From Haloarcula halobia (GTDB lineage Archaea > Halobacteriota > Halobacteria > Halobacteriales > Haloarculaceae), in NCBI RefSeq assembly GCF_029338255.1, contig NZ_CP119787.1, positions 1,054,001 to 1,118,000 on the forward strand: DNA of 64,000 nt, written 5' to 3'. Both the position numbers and the translations under genes were made by a program. The stretch's first letter is position 1. Every line of letters begins with the position of its first letter. This document shows positions 1,191 through 52,405 of this stretch, one piece after another. The notes under the pieces are model-generated. The model saw only the letters and a list, made by a program, of their open reading frames with translations, was not told the DNA's origin and did not search any database.

Positions 1191-4160
1191 TCAGTCGTCG
1201 TCGGCGGCCGGCTGGGCCACCTCGCGGTCGGCCCGTGGCCCCTCCAGGTCGACGCTGGGCAGCAGGTCGCGGAGGTACTGGCCGGTGTAGGACTCCTCGG
1301 TCCGTGCGACCTCCTCCGGGGTACCCGCGGCAACGAGCGTCCCGCCGTTCTCCCCGCCCTCCGGTCCGAGGTCGAGGATGTGGTCGGCGTTCTTCACCAG
1401 GTCCAGCTCGTGCTCGATGACCACCACGGTGTTGCCGTCGTCGGTCAGGCGGTGGAGCACGTCGATGAGCTTTCGCTCGTCCTCGGGGTGGAGCCCGGTG
1501 GTGGGCTCGTCCAGCAGATAGAGCGTCTCGCCGGAATCTTTCTTGCCCAGTTCCTCTGCGAGTTTGACGCGCTGTGCCTCCCCGCCCGAGAGGGTGGTCG
1601 AGGGCTGGCCGAGTTTCATGTAGTCCAGCCCGACGTCCTTCAGGAGCTGGAGGCGCCGCCGGATGCCGCTGTGGCTCTCGAAGAAGTCGTAGGCCTCCTC
1701 GACGGTCATCTCCAGGACGTCGGCGATGGTCGCGCCCTTGTACGTGACGTCCAGCGTCTCGTCGTTGTAGCGGGCGCCGCCACACTCCTCGCAGGGCACC
1801 TCCACGTCCGAGAGGAAGTTCATGTCGATGGTGACGGTGCCCTGGCCGCCACACCCCTCACAGCGGCCGCCCTTGACGTTGAAGGAGAACCGCCCTTTCT
1901 CGTAGCCCCGCTGTTTCGAGAGGCTGGTCTCGGCGAACAGCTCGCGGATGTGGTCGAAGACGTTGGTGTAGGTCGCGGGGTTCGACCGGGGCGTGCGGCC
2001 GATTGGCGACTGGTCGATCAACCGGACCGTCTCGATGTTGTCGATGCCCTCGATGGCGTCGTGCTCGCCGGGGTTCACGTCGGTGTCGTTCATCCGGCGC
2101 ACGAGGCCCTTGTAGAGCACGTCGTGCATTAGCGTCGACTTACCCGACCCCGAGACGCCGGTGATGGCTGTGAACGTCCCCAGCGGGAACTCGATGTCGA
2201 GGTCCGCGAGGTTGTGCTGGCGGGCACCCCGCACGGTGAGCGTCCCGTCGCCCGGTCGACGCTCCTCCGGGACCGGAATCGCCCGCTCCCCGGAGAGGTA
2301 CTCGCCGGTCACGGAGTCGTCGGCGGCCATCACCTCCTCGACGGGGCCGTTGACTACCACCTCGCCGCCGCGCCGGCCGGGACCCGGGCCCATGTCGATG
2401 ATGTTGTCGGCCCGCCGCATCGTCTCGGTGTCGTGTTCGACGACCAGCAGGGTGTTGCCCAGGTCGCGCAGTTCCTCTAAGGTGTTCAGCAGGCGGTCGT
2501 TGTCGCGGTGGTGCAGGCCGATGGAGGGCTCGTCGAGCACGTAGAGGACGCCGACGAGTCCCGAGCCGATCTGCGTCGCCAGGCGGATGCGCTGGCTCTC
2601 CCCGCCCGAGAGCGTCGCGGCCTCGCGGTCCAGCGTCAGGTACTCCAGGCCGACCTCCTTCATGAAGCCCAGGCGGGCGCGGATCTCCTTGAGGATCTCC
2701 TCGGCGATCTTCCGGTCGCGCGCCGAGAGGTTCGCCTCCAGGCCCTCGAAGTGGGTCAGCGCGTCGCCGATCGACATCTGGTTGACCTCGGTGATGGCGG
2801 TGCCGTCCACCAGAACCGCGCGGGACTCGGCTTTCAGGCGCGTCCCCTCGCAGTCGGGACAGGTCGTCGTCGCCATGAAGTCCTCGATGTGCTCGCGGGC
2901 GCGGTCCGAGTCCGTCTCGACGTGCCGGCGCTCGAGATTGGGGATGACGCCCTCGAAGCGCTCGGTCTTCTCACGGGTGCCGTTCTTGGTGCGCCACTGG
3001 AAGTGGACGACGTCGTCGGTCCCGTAGAGGAACTGCCGGCGAATCCCCGGGTCCAGGTCCTCGAAGGGCGTGTGGACGGAGACGCCGAAGTGCTCGGCGA
3101 CGTTGTCCAGCTGCCGGGAGTAGTACGTCCGGTCGTAGCTCCAGGGCTCGAAGACGTCTTTCAGCGGTTTACTCTCGTCGCGTACGACGAGGTCCTCGGC
3201 GACCTCCTTGGTCTCGCCGAGCCCCTCGCAGGCCGGACAGGCACCGTGCGGGGAGTTAAACGAGAACGACCGGGTCTCGATCTCGGAGATGTCGATGCCA
3301 CAGTGGGTACAGGCGAGGTCCTCGGAGAGTTCGACGACCAGGCGGTCGTCGCTCCCGGCGTCCGCCTCGTCGTGGGCCAGGTCGCCCGTCCGACGGCTGG
3401 TCGACCCGCCGAGCGCGTCGGCCACACCCCCGGGCGGGTCCGGGAGGACGACCTTCAGCGTCCCCTCGGCCTCCCCGAGCGCCGTCTCGACGGAGTCGGT
3501 GATCCGCGATCGCGCCTCCGTCGAGACCGTGATACGGTCGACGACGACGTCGACGGTGTGGTCGTAGTTCTCGTCCAGGTCGGGGCGGTCCAGCGTGAGG
3601 TCGTACTCCTCGCCGTCGACCTCGACGCGGGCGTACCCGTCGCCGACGAGCTCGTCGAACAGGTCCTCGAAGGCGCCCTTCTGGTCGCGGACCACTGGCG
3701 CACACAGCTTCGCGCGGGTCCCCTCGGGGAGGTCGAGGAGGCGCGAGACCATGTTCTGGGCCGACTGCTCGCCCACCTCGCGGCCACACTCCGGGCAGTG
3801 CGGGACGCCGATGCGGGCATACAGCAGGCGGAGGTAGTCGTGGAGTTCCGTGACGGTCCCGACCGTCGAGCGGGGGTTGTTCGCGGCGTTCTTCTGGTCG
3901 ATGGAGATCGCCGGCGAGAGCCCCTCGACGTTCTCGACCTGGGGCTTGTCCATCTGGCCCAGGAAGTTCCGGGCGTACGCCGACAGCGACTCGATGTAGC
4001 GCCGCTGGCCCTCGGCGTAGACCGTCTCGAAGGCGAGCGAGGACTTCCCCGACCCCGAGAGGCCGGTGACGACGGTGAGTTCCTCGCGGGGAATCTCCAC
4101 GTCGACGTCCTTGAGGTTGTGTTCCGCTGCGCCCGTGACCTCGATGACGTCTTTACTCAT
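1191..4160 (-). CDS. uvrA: Excinuclease ABC subunit UvrA
   Basis: This 989-residue protein is the damage-recognition ATPase of bacterial-type nucleotide excision repair, which haloarchaea acquired together with UvrB and UvrC. Two ABC ATPase modules are visible. The first has Walker A '[12 protein letters not shown]' near residue 35, a zinc module with CPEC around residue 120, the CTHCG and CPAC cysteines around 285-315, and signature 'LSGGESQRI'. The second has '[13 protein letters not shown]', the C-x2-C-x19-C-x2-C zinc finger (CEGC...CEEC), signature 'LSGGEAQRV' and Walker B '[15 protein letters not shown]'. Length and domain order are normal for UvrA. ATG at 4160 gives the usual '[17 protein letters not shown]' opening. 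No uvrB or uvrC is in the window. Confidence 0.97.
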
Positions 4161-22546: not shown

Positions 22547-22783
22547 CCGGGCGGATTCGAACCGGAGAAAGATTCACTACGTTCGTCTTTCAGGGCTCGA
22601 ATCCTGATGGCCCACACAGATTCCGCTGGCTCCTCGCTCCGCTCGTCGCAGGCGGCGTCAGAAGTGGGTCCGGGCGGATTCGAACCGGAGGAAGACGTGC
22701 TCGCTTCGCTGCGCGCGACTTCCAGGGCTCGAACCGCCCGTCGGATAGATTCGCCACTCACGGTTCGTTCGTGGCAGAATCTA
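22547..22783 (-). repeat. Array of tRNA-Val 3'-end copies alternating with GA-rich-loop hairpins
   Basis: The last part of the tRNA-Val gene (22785-22805 on the plus strand, 21 bp) recurs exactly at 22666-22686. Its 17-bp core recurs at 22547-22563. The copies start about 123 and 119 bp apart. Between them are hairpins whose minus-strand loops read GAACGTAGTGA (22574-22584), GAGCGGAGCGA (22634-22644), AGCGAAGCGA (22701-22710) and GAACGAACCGTGA (22758-22770). The last has a 13-bp stem with one bulge and abuts the tRNA 3' end. This 397-base stretch (22387-22783) holds no credible protein gene. The copied tRNA ends look like attachment sites or relics of integration. Confidence 0.75.
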
Positions 22784-22857
22784 TGGGTCCGGGCGGATTC
22801 GAACCACCGACCTCGGCCTTGTAAAGGCCACGTCATAACCAACTAGACCACGGACCC
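22784..22857 (-). tRNA. tRNA-Val (anticodon UAC)
   Basis: On the minus strand a full cloverleaf can be drawn: acceptor GGGTCCG/CGGACCC with discriminator A, a D arm containing AGTTGGTT, anticodon stem TGGCC/GGCCG with loop TTTACAA giving anticodon TAC, and T arm GGTGG-TTCGAAT-CCGCC. Length is 74 nt including the discriminator. CCA is not encoded and no intron is present. It reads GUA codons. The 3' end is followed directly by a long hairpin and by copies of its own 3' end. Confidence 0.95.
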
Positions 22858-37230: not shown

Positions 37231-39108
37231 ATGGAAATTGTACCGGACACGAGCGTGGTCGTCGACGGCCGCGTGTCCGAACAGGTCGAGGCCGACGCCG
37301 ATCCGGACTCGCCGGAGAGCGGCAAAGGCTTTGCCGGCGCGACGGTGGTGATGCCCGAGGCCGTCGTCGGCGAACTCGAAGCACAGGCCAACGACGGCCG
37401 ACAGACCGGCTGGGAGGGACTCGAGGAACTCCAGCGACTGGTCGAGCTCGCAGGCGAGGGCACCATCGAGGTCGAGTACGTCGGCCGCCGGCCCGACGCC
37501 ATCGAGAAGCGCGACGCCGGCGAGGGCGAGATCGACGCGCTCATCCGGGACATCGCCGGCGACCGCGGCGCCCTGCTGGTCACCAGCGACGACGTCCAGG
37601 CCGAGGTGGCCCGCGCGAAGGGCCTGGAGGTCGAGTACATCGAACCCCGGGGGCGCTCGGTCGACCGCCTGGATATCGAGAACTTCTTCGACGAGTCGAC
37701 GATGAGCGTCCACCTGAAGGTCGGCGTCGCCCCGTTCGCGAAGAAGGGCGACATCGGCGACATGCACTACCAGCCGATTCGCGACGACGAGGCCACGGAG
37801 TCGGAACTGCAGGCCTACGCCGCCGACATCGAGGACGGGGCGCGCGGCTCGCCCGACGGCTTCGTCGAGCTGGACGAACCGGGGATGACCATCATCCAGT
37901 TCCGGGACCTCCGTATCGCCATCGCACGGCCGCCCTTTGCCGACGCCCTGGAGATCACGGCGGTCCGCCCCATCGTCAAGACCGAACTCGACGACTACGA
38001 GTACGCCGACGAACTGCGGGACCGCTTTACCGAACGCCAGCGTGGCGTCCTCATCTCCGGGTCGCCCGGGGCCGGGAAGTCGACGTTCGCCCAGGCCGTC
38101 GCGGAGTTCCTCGTCGACGCCGACTACTCGGTCAAGACGATGGAGAAGCCACGGGACCTCCAGGTCGGCCCGAACGTCACCCAGTACACCGCCCTCGACG
38201 GGTCGATGGCGAAGACAGCCGACGCGCTACTGATGGTCCGGCCCGACTACACCATCTACGACGAGGTCCGCAAGACCGACGACTTCGAGGTGTTTGCGGA
38301 CATGCGTCTGGCCGGCGTCGGGATGGTCGGGGTCGTCCACGCGACCCGCGCCATCGACGCCCTCCAGCGACTCATCGGCCGGGTCGAACTCGGTCTCATC
38401 CCGCAGATCGTCGACACCGTCGTCTACATCGAGGCCGGCCAGGTCCACACCGTCTACGACGTCACGACCGAGGTCAAGGTCCCCGCGGGCCTCATGGAGG
38501 AGGACCTGGCCCGCCCGGTCATCATGGTCAAGGACTTCGAGACCGACGCGCCGGCCTTCGAGATCTACACCTTCAACAACCAGGTCGTCACCGTCCCGCT
38601 TGACGAGGACGACGACGGCGAGGACTCGGGCGTCGACCGCCTCGCGAAACAGGAGGTCGAACGCGAGATCCGCTCGATCGCCCGCGGCCACGTCGAGGTC
38701 GAACTGCGCGGCCCCAACACGGCGGTCGTGTGGGTCGAGGACGACGACATCTCGCAGGTCATCGGCAAGGGCGGGGGTCGCATCTCCGACGTCGAGAACC
38801 GCCTGGGCATCGACATCGACGTCCGGACCTTCGAGGAGCGCCCGACCGGCCCCTCCGGCGGGCCACAGACCGACAGCGGCGGCAAACAGGGCGAGATCGT
38901 CCAGCCCGAGGTCACGTCGCGACACATCATCGTCCCGCTTGACGGGCACGCCGGCGACACCGTCGAGGTGCAGGCCGACGGCGAGTACCTGTTCACTGCG
39001 ACGGTCTCCCGTGGCGGCGAGATACAGGTCTCGCGCGGGTCGGGTATCGCGGAGGAACTGGAGCGGGCAATCGACCGCGGGAACACGATCACCGTCGTGC
39101 CGTCCTGA
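37231..39108 (+). CDS. PIN-domain / type II secretion-like ATPase with KH domain (PINA)
   Basis: The 625 residues contain an N-terminal PIN nuclease-like domain ('MEIVPDTSVVVDGR', acidic residues D6 and D12, and 'LLVTSDDVQAEVAR'). A GspE-like ATPase core follows (Walker A 'GSPGAGKST' near residue 278; 'YTIYDEVRKTDDFEVFADMRLAG'), then a KH domain with 'VIGKGGGRISDVENRLG' (about 510-526) and a C-terminal beta domain. This matches archaeal PINA proteins, hexameric ATPases reported to act on Holliday junctions. ATG 37231 is 27 nt after a TATA-like 'CTTATCAA'. The last 28 bp of the gene lie inside a 157-bp tandem duplication. Confidence 0.9.
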   Translation: MEIVPDTSVVVDGRVSEQVEADADPDSPESGKGFAGATVVMPEAVVGELEAQANDGRQTGWEGLEELQRLVELAGEGTIEVEYVGRRPDAIEKRDAGEGEIDALIRDIAGDRGALLVTSDDVQAEVARAKGLEVEYIEPRGRSVDRLDIENFFDESTMSVHLKVGVAPFAKKGDIGDMHYQPIRDDEATESELQAYAADIEDGARGSPDGFVELDEPGMTIIQFRDLRIAIARPPFADALEITAVRPIVKTELDDYEYADELRDRFTERQRGVLISGSPGAGKSTFAQAVAEFLVDADYSVKTMEKPRDLQVGPNVTQYTALDGSMAKTADALLMVRPDYTIYDEVRKTDDFEVFADMRLAGVGMVGVVHATRAIDALQRLIGRVELGLIPQIVDTVVYIEAGQVHTVYDVTTEVKVPAGLMEEDLARPVIMVKDFETDAPAFEIYTFNNQVVTVPLDEDDDGEDSGVDRLAKQEVEREIRSIARGHVEVELRGPNTAVVWVEDDDISQVIGKGGGRISDVENRLGIDIDVRTFEERPTGPSGGPQTDSGGKQGEIVQPEVTSRHIIVPLDGHAGDTVEVQADGEYLFTATVSRGGEIQVSRGSGIAEELERAIDRGNTITVVPS

Positions 39109-39413
39109 AGGGCATCCGACGAGCGTAGCGAGTCGGTTCCCGGGACCGAATAGCGTGAGGTCCCGCTTTTTCGCCCACGTTTTTCGAGGAGCGGTGTGCG
39201 AGCACCGCGAGCACACCCGACGACGAAAAAGGTGGTAGAACACGATCACCGTCGTGCCGTCCTGAAGGGCATCCGACGAGCGTAGCGAGTCGGTTCCCGG
39301 GACCGAACAGCGTGAGGTCCCGCTTTTTCGCCCACGTTTTTCGAGGAGCGGTGTGCGAGCACCGCGAGCACACCCGACGACGAAAAAGGTGGTAGAACAC
39401 GATCACCGTCGTG
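39081..39413 (+). repeat. 157-bp tandem duplication carrying three hairpins, starting inside the PINA gene
   Basis: 39081-39237 and 39238-39394 are identical except for one base (T at 39151 against C in the second copy). A third partial copy begins at 39395 and loses identity after about 19 bp. The unit includes the last 28 bp of the PINA coding sequence and its stop. Each copy holds hairpins CCGAC/GTCGG, CGGGACC/GGTCCCG and GGTGTGC/GCACACC with 11-nt loops. The last is enclosed by an outer arm CCAC-G-TTTTTCG / CGAAAAA-G-GTGG. The rest of the 373-bp gap to SAMP1 holds no gene. Confidence 0.9.
39165..39235 (+). terminator. Probable T-rich terminator of the PINA gene, repeated 157 bp downstream
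   Basis: Two T5 tracts (39166-39171 and 39180-39184) follow GC-rich hairpins directly after the stop codon. On the opposite strand the A5 tract at 39226-39230 gives a T run too. Oligo-T stretches are the core of archaeal intrinsic termination. The same layout is repeated in the second copy. Function is inferred from position. Confidence 0.45.
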
Positions 39414-39451
39414 TCGTCGTCAGCACCCCTCGCATACGTCCCCCGTTCACA

Positions 39452-41654: not shown

Positions 41655-41675
41655 ACGGCTCACTACGTTCACCGT
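41655..41675 (-). repeat. Isolated hairpin with the conserved GA-loop core
   Basis: On the minus strand ACGGT pairs with GCCGT (one T.G pair) around the 11-nt loop GAACGTAGTGA. The same loop occurs in the tRNA-Val array at 22574-22584. It lies between the AOR stop (41714) and the next minus-strand start (41637). Confidence 0.6.
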
Positions 41676-41713
41676 TCCGGTTCGAGGCATCTCCCTGCGG
41701 TCGATGCCTCGCT

Positions 41714-43657
41714 TCAGTCGTCGCTCGGGGCGGCCGCGCCGCCGGCGCTGACGCCGGTGCCGGGGCCGATGTCGATGCCCAGCTCGTCGAGCTTCTCGTC
41801 GGGCACGACGCCGTCCTCCCAGCCGCGGACGTCGTAGTACTCCCCTTTCAGCTTGTCCAGCTCGGCGAGTTCGCCCTCGGAGCCGCCCTGTGCGGGGATG
41901 GCGTCCTCGTGACCCTCGACGAACCGGCCCGGCAGGTCGTCGTCGCTGCCGTCGAAGCCCGCGAGGTTGTTGTAGTAGCGTTCGAGGTTGTAGATGCGCT
42001 CGCCGGCCTCCATCAGCTCGTCCTCGGTGACCTCCATGCCGGTCATGCCGTTGTACTGCAGGACGTACTCCTCGATACCCTCGGCGAAGGCGTTGAACTT
42101 GCAGATGTCGAAGGAGTCGCTGATGGCGTGCAGGTCCTGGAAGAGGGCACACAGTTCGCCTTTGCCTTCCCACTCGCGCGGGTCGACCTTCTCCGGAACG
42201 CCCAGGATCTCGGCGGCCGGCGTGTACCCACGGAGGTGGCACGCGCCGCGGTTCGAGGTCGCGTAGCCGATGGCCATCCCCTTCATGCAGCGGGGGTCGT
42301 AGGCGGCCATCGTCTGGCCCTTGACCGCCAGCGAGTTGTCGTGGGCGTCGAACTCCTCGCCGAGGTGGTTCGGGCCCTCGGCGAGGTGGTCGGCGAGCTC
42401 GCCGTCGCGCTCGGCGATGGCGTCGATCATGTCGATCATCGTGTCGGCGTCGCCCCAGTCCATGCCCTCACCGAGCCCGTCGAGCTTGCCCTGCTCGGTC
42501 ATCTCCATGGCCATCGCCATCGTGTTGCCCACGTCGATGGTGTCGACGCCCACGTCGTTGCACCGTTCGAGCATCACGGCGATCTTGTCGCGCTCGACGT
42601 GGCCGGAGTTCGGGCCCAGCGCCCACGCGGACTCGTACTCGTAGGACTCGGTGCGGACGTTCAGCTCCTCGCCCTTGTGCATCGTCTGGACCTCGACTTC
42701 CTTCTTGCAGGCGACCGGACAGGAGTGACAGGTCGGCTCGTCGACGAGGATGTTCTCCCGGACGTTCTCGCCCGATACGTCCTCGGAGTCGATGATGCGC
42801 TCGCCGTCGCCCTCCGCCTCGGACATCGCCCGGGTCGAGGAGTACTTGGCGTTCTTCGTCGGCAGTCCGTCCATCTCCTCGGTGACGTTCATCAGGACGT
42901 TGGTACCGTACACCGAGAGGCCACCCTCGTTGGGGCCGGTGATGTCGGACTCCTGGATGACCTGCATGGCCTGCTTGTGGCCCTCCTGGAACGTCTCCTT
43001 GTCCTTCGGTTTCGGCATCCGGGTCGGCGACTTCACGACCACGGCTTTCAGCTTCTTGTTGCCCATCACACAGCCGGTCCCGCCACGGCCCGACGCCCGG
43101 TCGTCCTCGTTGACGATGCAGGCGTACTTGACCTCGTTCTCGCCGGCCTGGCCGATGGCCATCGTCGAGAGGTTCTTGCCGTAGGAGCCCTCGATCTCGT
43201 CTTCGATCTCGTCGATGGTGTCGTGGACGCCCCAGCCCCACATGTGGGAGGCGTCGCGCAGTTCGACCTCGCCGTCCTCGACGACGGCGTAGACGGGGTG
43301 GTCGGACTGTCCCTCGAACAGCAGGCCGTCGAACCCGGCCCACTTCAGGCGTGCGCCCGACCAGCCACCGTGGTGGGAGTCTGTGACCTGTCCCTCGATG
43401 GGTGACTTGGTACAGATGGCGATACGGCCGCTCATGGTCACCTGAGTCCCTGTGAGCGGGCCGTTCATGAACGCGAGCAGGTTGTCCGGGCCCAGTGGGT
43501 CGACGTCCGGACCCTGGTCGAAGACGTACTTCACACCCAGCCCCCGGGCACCGATGTACTTCTTCGCGTCCTCGTCGTCGATGCCCTCGTAGGACACCTC
43601 CCCCTCTCCGAGGTCTATTCGGGCGATGTGGTCTTGGAAGCCGCCGAGGTCAGTCAT
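41714..43657 (-). CDS. aor: Aldehyde:ferredoxin oxidoreductase (tungsten-type AOR family)
   Basis: This 647-residue protein has the AOR N-terminal domain ('YIGARGLGVKYVFDQ', 'GPLTGTQVTMSGR') and the cofactor-contact motifs 'AGENEVKYACIVNEDDRASGRGGTG' (quoted in part). The [4Fe-4S] cysteines are in 'CHSCPVAC' (about residues 329-336), with the fourth in 'SFDICKFNAF'. 'DVGNTMAMAMEM' matches a helix near the tungstopterin site. The family oxidises aldehydes to acids with ferredoxin as acceptor and normally carries W bound to two pterins. The surrounding Moco genes and TOBE regulator fit this assignment. The substrate is not determinable. Confidence 0.93.
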   Translation of the reverse strand: MTDLGGFQDHIARIDLGEGEVSYEGIDDEDAKKYIGARGLGVKYVFDQGPDVDPLGPDNLLAFMNGPLTGTQVTMSGRIAICTKSPIEGQVTDSHHGGWSGARLKWAGFDGLLFEGQSDHPVYAVVEDGEVELRDASHMWGWGVHDTIDEIEDEIEGSYGKNLSTMAIGQAGENEVKYACIVNEDDRASGRGGTGCVMGNKKLKAVVVKSPTRMPKPKDKETFQEGHKQAMQVIQESDITGPNEGGLSVYGTNVLMNVTEEMDGLPTKNAKYSSTRAMSEAEGDGERIIDSEDVSGENVRENILVDEPTCHSCPVACKKEVEVQTMHKGEELNVRTESYEYESAWALGPNSGHVERDKIAVMLERCNDVGVDTIDVGNTMAMAMEMTEQGKLDGLGEGMDWGDADTMIDMIDAIAERDGELADHLAEGPNHLGEEFDAHDNSLAVKGQTMAAYDPRCMKGMAIGYATSNRGACHLRGYTPAAEILGVPEKVDPREWEGKGELCALFQDLHAISDSFDICKFNAFAEGIEEYVLQYNGMTGMEVTEDELMEAGERIYNLERYYNNLAGFDGSDDDLPGRFVEGHEDAIPAQGGSEGELAELDKLKGEYYDVRGWEDGVVPDEKLDELGIDIGPGTGVSAGGAAAPSDD

Positions 43658-51494: not shown

Positions 51495-51519
51495 GGAACA
51501 ACCCGCGCCTTCGGACTCC

Positions 51520-52182
51520 TCAGGACGGGCCGACGTCGTGTTCTCGGATATGGGACAGAGAGAGTGCGGGCGACCGTGCGAGAAGTGCCTCTATGTCACT
51601 CTTTGTGTCCGGTATCGGCGTCGTATCCATTCCTACGGGTGTCTCTGGAGTCGTTGCTGTCCGTTGCTTCGTTCCCGTACTCGCGGCAATCGCGAACTTA
51701 TTGAAGCCGAGTGCCACCTGCCAGCCGTCTCCTGCAAAGTACTGTGCCTGTTCCGACGGAGAGTTGACTATGGGGACGACGATGAGGACTCTCACACGAA
51801 GGTCATCTGTATCGGTGTACTCGGCTTGCACACCCTCTCTAAAACCGAGGTTCGAGAATGCTGCTTCCTCTGTCGATGTTTGCTCCCATCCGTTTCCCGG
51901 AGTCGGGAGAAGTTCTTCCGGGCTTGCTTCGTCCCAGTTTGCGGTGGTCGATGCCGGTGTAGTCGTCTCCGTCGGTGCGTGGCTGGTCACCGTCTCGGAC
52001 GTCGCTGTTTCTGTCCGTCCTTCGTTGCCCCCCCGTGCAACCGGAAACACCACCGAAACAGACGGTACTTCCGAGGCGGAGTCTCGAGCGCCGGTTCCAG
52101 TCCCGAGTAGGCATTGTAGCACTGCTATTGTTGGTGTGAGCAAGTGTCTTCTGGCGAAATTCTCGGTTCGTTTAACTCTCAT
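51520..52182 (-). CDS. Putative secreted protein, lower G+C than its neighbours
   Basis: This 220-residue protein has a basic N-terminus (RVKRTENFARRH) and a hydrophobic segment 'LLTPTIAVLQCLLGTGTG' that could be a signal peptide. The Cys context (VLQC) is not a good lipobox. A Thr/Ser-rich spacer follows, then a globular part with 'GWEQTSTEEAAFSNLGFREGVQAEY' (in part) and 'VRVLIVVPIVNSPSEQAQYFAGDGWQVALGFNKFA'. Codon third positions are clearly more AT-rich than in ABCE1 or SepF, suggesting recent transfer or weak selection. It lies opposite to both neighbours. Function unknown. Confidence 0.6.
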   Translation of the reverse strand: MRVKRTENFARRHLLTPTIAVLQCLLGTGTGARDSASEVPSVSVVFPVARGGNEGRTETATSETVTSHAPTETTTPASTTANWDEASPEELLPTPGNGWEQTSTEEAAFSNLGFREGVQAEYTDTDDLRVRVLIVVPIVNSPSEQAQYFAGDGWQVALGFNKFAIAASTGTKQRTATTPETPVGMDTTPIPDTKSDIEALLARSPALSLSHIREHDVGPS

Positions 52183-52266
52183 TCCGTGGTTCTCGGGCGG
52201 TCCACCCTTGGATCTAAGATCATTCCAAATTCCCGAAAAAGGCCCGTATGTACACTGAAGAGAGGC

Positions 52267-52405
52267 GGTACGCAAGCGTACGGTGCGAGCGAAGCGAGCA
52301 CCGTTTCACGGCCGCGAACGAAGTGAGCGGCCGGCCTTTTTCGCCCACGTTTTTCGAGGCGTGGTGGCCGAGCGAAGCGAGGCCACCCAACGAAGAAAAA
52401 GGTGG
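52267..52405 (+). repeat. Cluster of four hairpins sharing the GA-loop core and the terminator-like arm
   Basis: Hairpins: GTACG/CGTAC with loop CAAG (52268-52281); CGGTGC/GCACCG with loop GAGCGAAGCGA (52281-52303); CGGCCGC/GCGGCCG with loop GAACGAAGTGA (52309-52333); GGTGGCC/GGCCACC with loop GAGCGAAGCGA (52363-52387). The last is enclosed by CCAC-G-TTTTTCG / GAAAAA-G-GTGG. The 24 bp from 52336 are identical to the segment after PINA at 39166. Stems differ but stay complementary. The cluster lies between divergent genes and fills most of the 267-bp gap. Confidence 0.85.

Follow-up and report, generated by a model that had tools for sequence, protein, structure and literature searches.

A family of haloarchaeal hairpins with a constant core and variable stems is enriched at convergent gene ends and forms composite elements

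Hairpins and composite elements in the window

The window, by which we mean the whole 64-kb stretch of Haloarcula halobia DNA that was analyzed, contains a composite element at positions 52267..52405 of the plus strand, and these coordinates span exactly one unit. Read directly, this unit consists of hairpin 1, TTTCA, hairpin 2, T5C, CCCACG, T5C, GAGGCGT, hairpin 3 and A5 GGTGG. Hairpin 1, ACGGTGC-GAGCGAAGCGA-GCACCGT (52280..52304, plus strand), and hairpin 2, CGGCCGC-GAACGAAGTGA-GCGGCCG (52309..52333, plus strand), were found by a pattern scan and matched a covariance model with E values of 5.6e-6 and 2.6e-6, respectively. They are followed by a terminator-like T5C run (52337..52342, plus strand), a motif that terminates transcription in Haloferax volcanii (PMC7237163), and by a second T5C run (52350..52355, plus strand), which forms the 5' arm of an outer stem. 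Hairpin 3, GGTGGCC-GAGCGAAGCGA-GGCCACC (52363..52387, plus strand), was likewise found by the scan and the covariance model and is identical in the nearest relative. It is nested inside the outer T5/A5 stem, whose 3' arm, A5GGTGG (52396..52405), is also a T-run of the minus strand and closes the unit with GGTGG; both arms were assigned from the sequence and from the covariation of the outer stem. The unit has T5C twice on the plus strand and once on the minus strand.

The 52.28-kb group lies 785 nt past the end of an ABCE1-like gene, and its last hairpin is 62 nt upstream of the start of sepF. From the ABCE1-like gene to the element, about 770 nt (51495-52266) contain no called gene. Given these two distances, the element may insulate the sepF promoter. 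Among 30 congeners, the host alone has the full unit at the orthologous site. Its right half is present in the nearest relative, with an identical sequence over the aligned stretch, which starts at the first T-run and extends into the region upstream of sepF; two other congeners have differing remnants of the element. The remnants upstream of sepF at L263 and L275 are unlike the element of the host.

Two further copies of the composite element were found by the scan behind a PINA-like gene (stop at 39108), at 39112..39235 and 39269..39392 of the plus strand. Both copies lie within a 157-nt tandem duplication (39081..39394, plus strand) of the 3' end of the PINA gene together with the element, after which the gene end recurs a third time, over 24 nt, at 39395-39418. 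The duplication repeats the entire 39.1-kb hairpin group and was absent from the first-pass annotation of this DNA. The same is true of a 9-bp hairpin with loop GACCGCAGGGA, CGAGGCATC-GACCGCAGGGA-GATGCCTCG (41683..41711, minus strand, scan), which stands directly behind an aldehyde ferredoxin oxidoreductase gene (stop at 41714). The scan also found the hairpin ACGGT-GAACGTAGTGA-GCCGT, with one G-U pair, at 41655..41675 of the minus strand. At 22547..22814 of the minus strand, the 3' end of tRNA-Val occurs three times with core motifs in between; the 22.57-22.78 kb locus is mainly a tRNA-Val 3'-end repeat with copies spaced 119-123 nt.

A hairpin family across the order

The scan pattern was a GA-N-N-NNN-N'-N'-GA loop with paired inner positions, enclosed by a stem of at least 5 bp. 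The hairpins that it recovered lie at 39.12-39.22, 41.66-41.70 and 52.28-52.39 kb; their stems, 5-9 bp long, are complementary and mutually unrelated. The window contains 8 occurrences of the core GARCGNAGYGA, compared with 1.3 expected (100 dinucleotide shuffles; mean 1.3, maximum 4). In sampled DNA from the host and from its nearest relative, a perfect stem of at least 5 bp enclosed 15 of 53 cores and 0 of 31 backward-letter controls (p=7e-4).

A covariance model was then built from 17 hairpins. Since these 17 rows had been picked for complementary stems, covariation within the training alignment is circular, and the evidence for a family rests on the outer stem and on the additional matches that genome searches gave. 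The model had 45 matches at E<=0.01, and 93 at E<=10, in the 3.48-Mb host genome. An order-wide search of 59 genomes gave matches in 42 of the 44 good genomes, with up to 68 per genome; beyond the order, 12 of 53 sampled genomes had matches, with 1-4 apiece. These searches confirmed the observation of the first-pass annotation, that one constant core is enclosed by variable complementary stems, as a real family across the order that is larger than had been reported. Of the four places said to contain at least eight such hairpins, three have complementary, unrelated stems, but the stems at 22.57-22.78 kb are imperfect.

Above the gathering score, an Rfam search matched tRNA-Val and no other family, and a known RNA family was therefore rejected. 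A text search of the literature with GCGAAGCGA and similar strings returned primers and unrelated text, and no motif published by sequence. Plasmids gave one weak match and phages none, which argues against a plasmid or phage origin. Not every match has a T-run, an example being the TAGCGAGG...CTGAGC type. A second type of hairpin, free of T-runs, TAGCGAGG..CTGAGCGNAGCGAAG..CCTCGA and GAACGGCGAGCGAAGCGAGCCGTGAGC, has GA pairs at two nested levels and was seen at 738-740 kb of G000:C1 and at 3001, 3061, 3167 and 3216 kb.

The contexts of 71 matches revealed that many hairpins are parts of a single composite layout of roughly 130 letters: GCATRC, hairpin 1, TTTCAC, hairpin 2, GCCTTTTTCGCCCACGTTTTTCGAGGAGTGG, hairpin 3, CCGACGACGAAAAAGGTGG. 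About 20 host loci are alike in this respect, and the linkers are constant between distant loci. The fullest form, of about 90-150 nt with T5 runs on both strands, occurs in Haloarcula and its relatives; elements with exact linkers were found in Haloarcula, Halomicroarcula, Halomicrobium, Halorientalis, Salinibaculum, Salinarchaeum and other Halobacteria.

The gene beside the element at 973 kb has a composite element 1-4 nt past its stop codon in about two-thirds or more of 30 congeners, and a few are without one. Across species, the hairpins at this locus vary and the linkers are retained. The outer stem around T5/A5 varies on both arms (CCAC/GTGG, GCAC/GTGC, GAAC/GTTC and GTA/TAC, with CGAC/GTCG at other loci), so that CG and GC alternate at one position and CG, UA, GC and AU at the next. 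In a hand-built alignment of 14 distinct arm pairs, in which the 973-kb locus is mixed with others, the covariation score of the outer stem was 0.30, compared with 0.07 after shuffling (0/500) and at most 0.055 in slid controls.

Gene-end position, strand, and inversion of loops

Genes were called with a purpose-written codon-model caller and not taken from annotation. By these calls, 67 of 71 matches were intergenic. Convergent regions contained 12 independent loci, with 6.4 expected from intergenic bases (1.9x), and divergent regions 7, with 13.7 expected (0.5x; convergent versus divergent, p=0.006). In co-directional regions of the host, the GNA strand was sense in 28 and antisense in 11 matches, which by independent loci became 14 versus 10 (p=0.54). 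No sense bias was found elsewhere either, with 9 versus 10 in the nearest relative and 18 versus 21 in other families (27 versus 31 in total). The convergent enrichment and the balanced counts by independent locus thus indicate a 3'-end bias without a strand bias. Of the two biases whose absence the first-pass annotation had named as refuting its interpretation, the strand bias was absent, so the GNA strand is not preferentially the sense strand; the 3'-end bias was present. The 52.28-kb group is not at a gene 3' end.

The host was compared with its nearest relative, which is about 93% identical at the PINA locus. A systematic search yielded 12 comparable hairpins in which the stem was kept; the loop was the same in 9, inverted in 3 and otherwise changed in none. 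At 973 kb, the stem GGGACC/GGTCCC was kept while the loop changed from TCGCTTCGCTC to GAGCGAAGCGA, its exact reverse complement. The loop at 448 kb was exactly inverted in the same way on the kept stem GAGGCTTC/GAAGCCTC. A near-exact inversion with two further changes was found at 1601 kb, and an inversion with further changes, including an arm base, at 1698 kb. Entire hairpins were also swapped between nearly identical linkers. Among single stem mismatches, the core strand had no wobble excess (9 GT versus 8 AC); the transcribed strand had 8 GT versus 3 AC (p=0.23).

It was proposed earlier that changing stems with preserved pairing indicate selection on structure. The complementary, variable stems are real, but the argument is weakened because loops invert on intact stems, entire hairpins are swapped and the core strand has no wobble excess. 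Template switching keeps the arms of a hairpin complementary without RNA selection and is able to make a perfect stem in one step (PMC8794818), and both loop inversion and arm copying have been reported for it (PMC8794818, PMC8604942). A loop inverted on an unchanged stem, the feature by which template-switch hairpins are known, was found at 448, 973 and 1601 kb. The loop flips and hairpin swaps together show the pattern published for replication template switching, which we infer as their cause; recombinational inversion could also have flipped the loops. The likeness to template-switch mutations (PMC8794818; yeast spacer inversion, PMC8604942) extends to the kept stem, the reverse-complemented loop and the homogenized arms. 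However, those mutations are known in rRNA and other RNA genes (PMC8794818) and in yeast coding DNA (PMC8604942), whereas here they would affect a dispersed archaeal hairpin family, in 3 of 12 hairpins between two congeners.

Terminator modules, gene-end copies and competing readings

The reading that we favor, and to which we would give an even chance, is that the elements are gene-end terminator or insulator modules whose hairpins are rebuilt by replication template switching. The fullest element would act as a bidirectional terminator or insulator after a stop codon, after the 3' end of a tRNA or, at 52.28 kb, ahead of a promoter. Template switching inside the inverted repeat would copy one arm onto the other and invert the loop, which we propose as the reason that the stems remain complementary, and hairpins would additionally be exchanged between copies of the element. 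The GA-R-C-GNA-G-Y-GA core would be a very stable turn that aids strand fold-back in either orientation; its role is probably that of an orientation-independent turn and not of a sense-strand RNA signal.

A terminator function is suggested by the T-rich run downstream of a gene that characterizes archaeal intrinsic terminators, present in the composite element as T5 runs on both strands. In H. volcanii, the T5C motif terminated 95% of transcripts (PMC7237163). The terminators described there resemble the present element in their intergenic T5C runs and in hairpins upstream of or near termination sites, but the haloarchaeal element is a repeated composite with T-runs on both strands and defined hairpins. 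The words GCGA and GAGCG do not occur in the main text of that paper (PMC7237163). Against this reading we count the 52.28-kb copy, which is not at a 3' end and is missing in most congeners, the many core hairpins without a T-run, and the 8 GT versus 3 AC mismatches of the transcribed strand, which leave room for an RNA effect. At the 973-kb gene, a T5 run precedes the hairpins, so not all of them can act in one termination event.

Behind the element, the 3' end of the preceding gene is repeated at 22 of 57 independent composite loci, over a length of 22-103 nt and in one case 215 nt. This copy begins within a few nucleotides of the right end of the element; the upstream one adjoins the element and stops at the stop codon or close to it. 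At 15 other loci, the right end lies against a stop codon of the opposite strand, and the gene-end copy was present in none of them (0/15; Fisher p=1.6e-4). The exclusion is not absolute, since loci with opposite-strand tRNA genes (L062 and L157) do have copies. The element regex, the home-made gene caller and the choice of loci are biased, and the counts of duplication loci are not rates. Among congeners, the PINA gene is followed by an element with copies of differing length in several and by no element in many.

A doubtful extension of the favored reading is that a portable two-way terminator is set precisely after the stop codon of a gene or the 3' end of a tRNA, that every such event copies 22-103 nt of the gene end to the far side of the element, and that this recurs at the same genes (PINA-like, argF-like and others) in different species. 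No known transposase would be needed; microhomology repair after processing of the hairpin base might suffice. With two copies of the gene end flanking the element, its precise removal would also be possible.

It is unlikely, in our judgment, that these are small transposase-free mobile elements of the kind known in haloarchaea as MITEs, PATEs and SMRs, moved by an enzyme of unspecified kind, inserting behind stops and duplicating a target of 22-103 nt. Such elements would explain why congeners are polymorphic for an insertion at the PINA locus, and would account for the gene 3'-end copy after the element at 22 independent loci, the tandem arrays and the constant linkers at distant loci. However, the duplication varies in length (22-103 nt, once 215), and a fixed-length target duplication was rejected on that ground. 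Neither terminal inverted repeats nor a transposase was noticed, the element follows the stop codon almost without a gap, plasmids and phages gave one match and none, and one locus is occupied in most of the genus. The PATE, SMR and MITE elements of Haloquadratum walsbyi (PMC3119063) are likewise short, transposase-free, palindromic, dispersed and haloarchaeal, but PATEs and SMRs make no target duplication, whereas the present element contains T5 runs and is accompanied by long duplications that vary in length. Membership in the IS200/605-derived PATEs was rejected because of the duplication at 22 of 57 loci, and membership in the MITEs because of its varying length and because no terminal inverted repeats were noticed. 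REP/GTAG and CGTC repeats (PMC3733652) are also short, intergenic, many-copy palindromes, but they keep the stem sequence and a terminal tetranucleotide, whereas the haloarchaeal hairpins keep the loop and vary the stems; with unrelated stems and variable flanks, membership in the REP (GTAG/CGTC) class was rejected.

Quite improbable is a neutral origin, in which chance GCGNAGC turns in GC-rich intergenic DNA seed template-switch palindromes that persist without function. The formation of perfect stems in one template-switch step (PMC8794818), the rapid turnover and the many species-specific copies are in its favor, but it does not account for the enrichment at convergent gene ends, the constant T5 runs, or a composite layout kept at one locus in most of about 30 congeners with a covarying outer stem. 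Least probable is an RNA 3'-end or mRNA-stability element with the sense-strand GNA hairpin as its functional unit, as the first-pass annotation had it: it fits three of four window loci, the 3'-end bias, the preference of an RNA model for the GNA strand by about 2 kcal/mol and the 8 GT versus 3 AC transcribed-strand mismatches, but the core strand has no wobble excess, and the lack of sense bias across independent loci and the inversion of loops between species led us to reject it as the main reading, so that the 3'-end part of that interpretation is supported and the sense-RNA part is not.

If the terminator-module reading is right, the family would be a natural many-copy system in which perfect, unrelated stems arise and persist through DNA copying, and stem covariation alone would be no proof of RNA function in haloarchaeal genomes. 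It would also suggest that haloarchaea use compact bidirectional terminators with swappable parts. The repeated copying of a gene 3' end behind such an element raises a puzzle of its own. Near 3398-3467 on the minus strand of L164 (Haloarcula sebkhae), the element lies between 215-nt repeats with only about 75% identity. This divergence suggests another lineage as the source of the adjoining gene end. At L021, L163 and L201, an element and a gene-end copy follow one same gene in three genomes, one of them of another family; by its end sequence, this gene may be argF-like.
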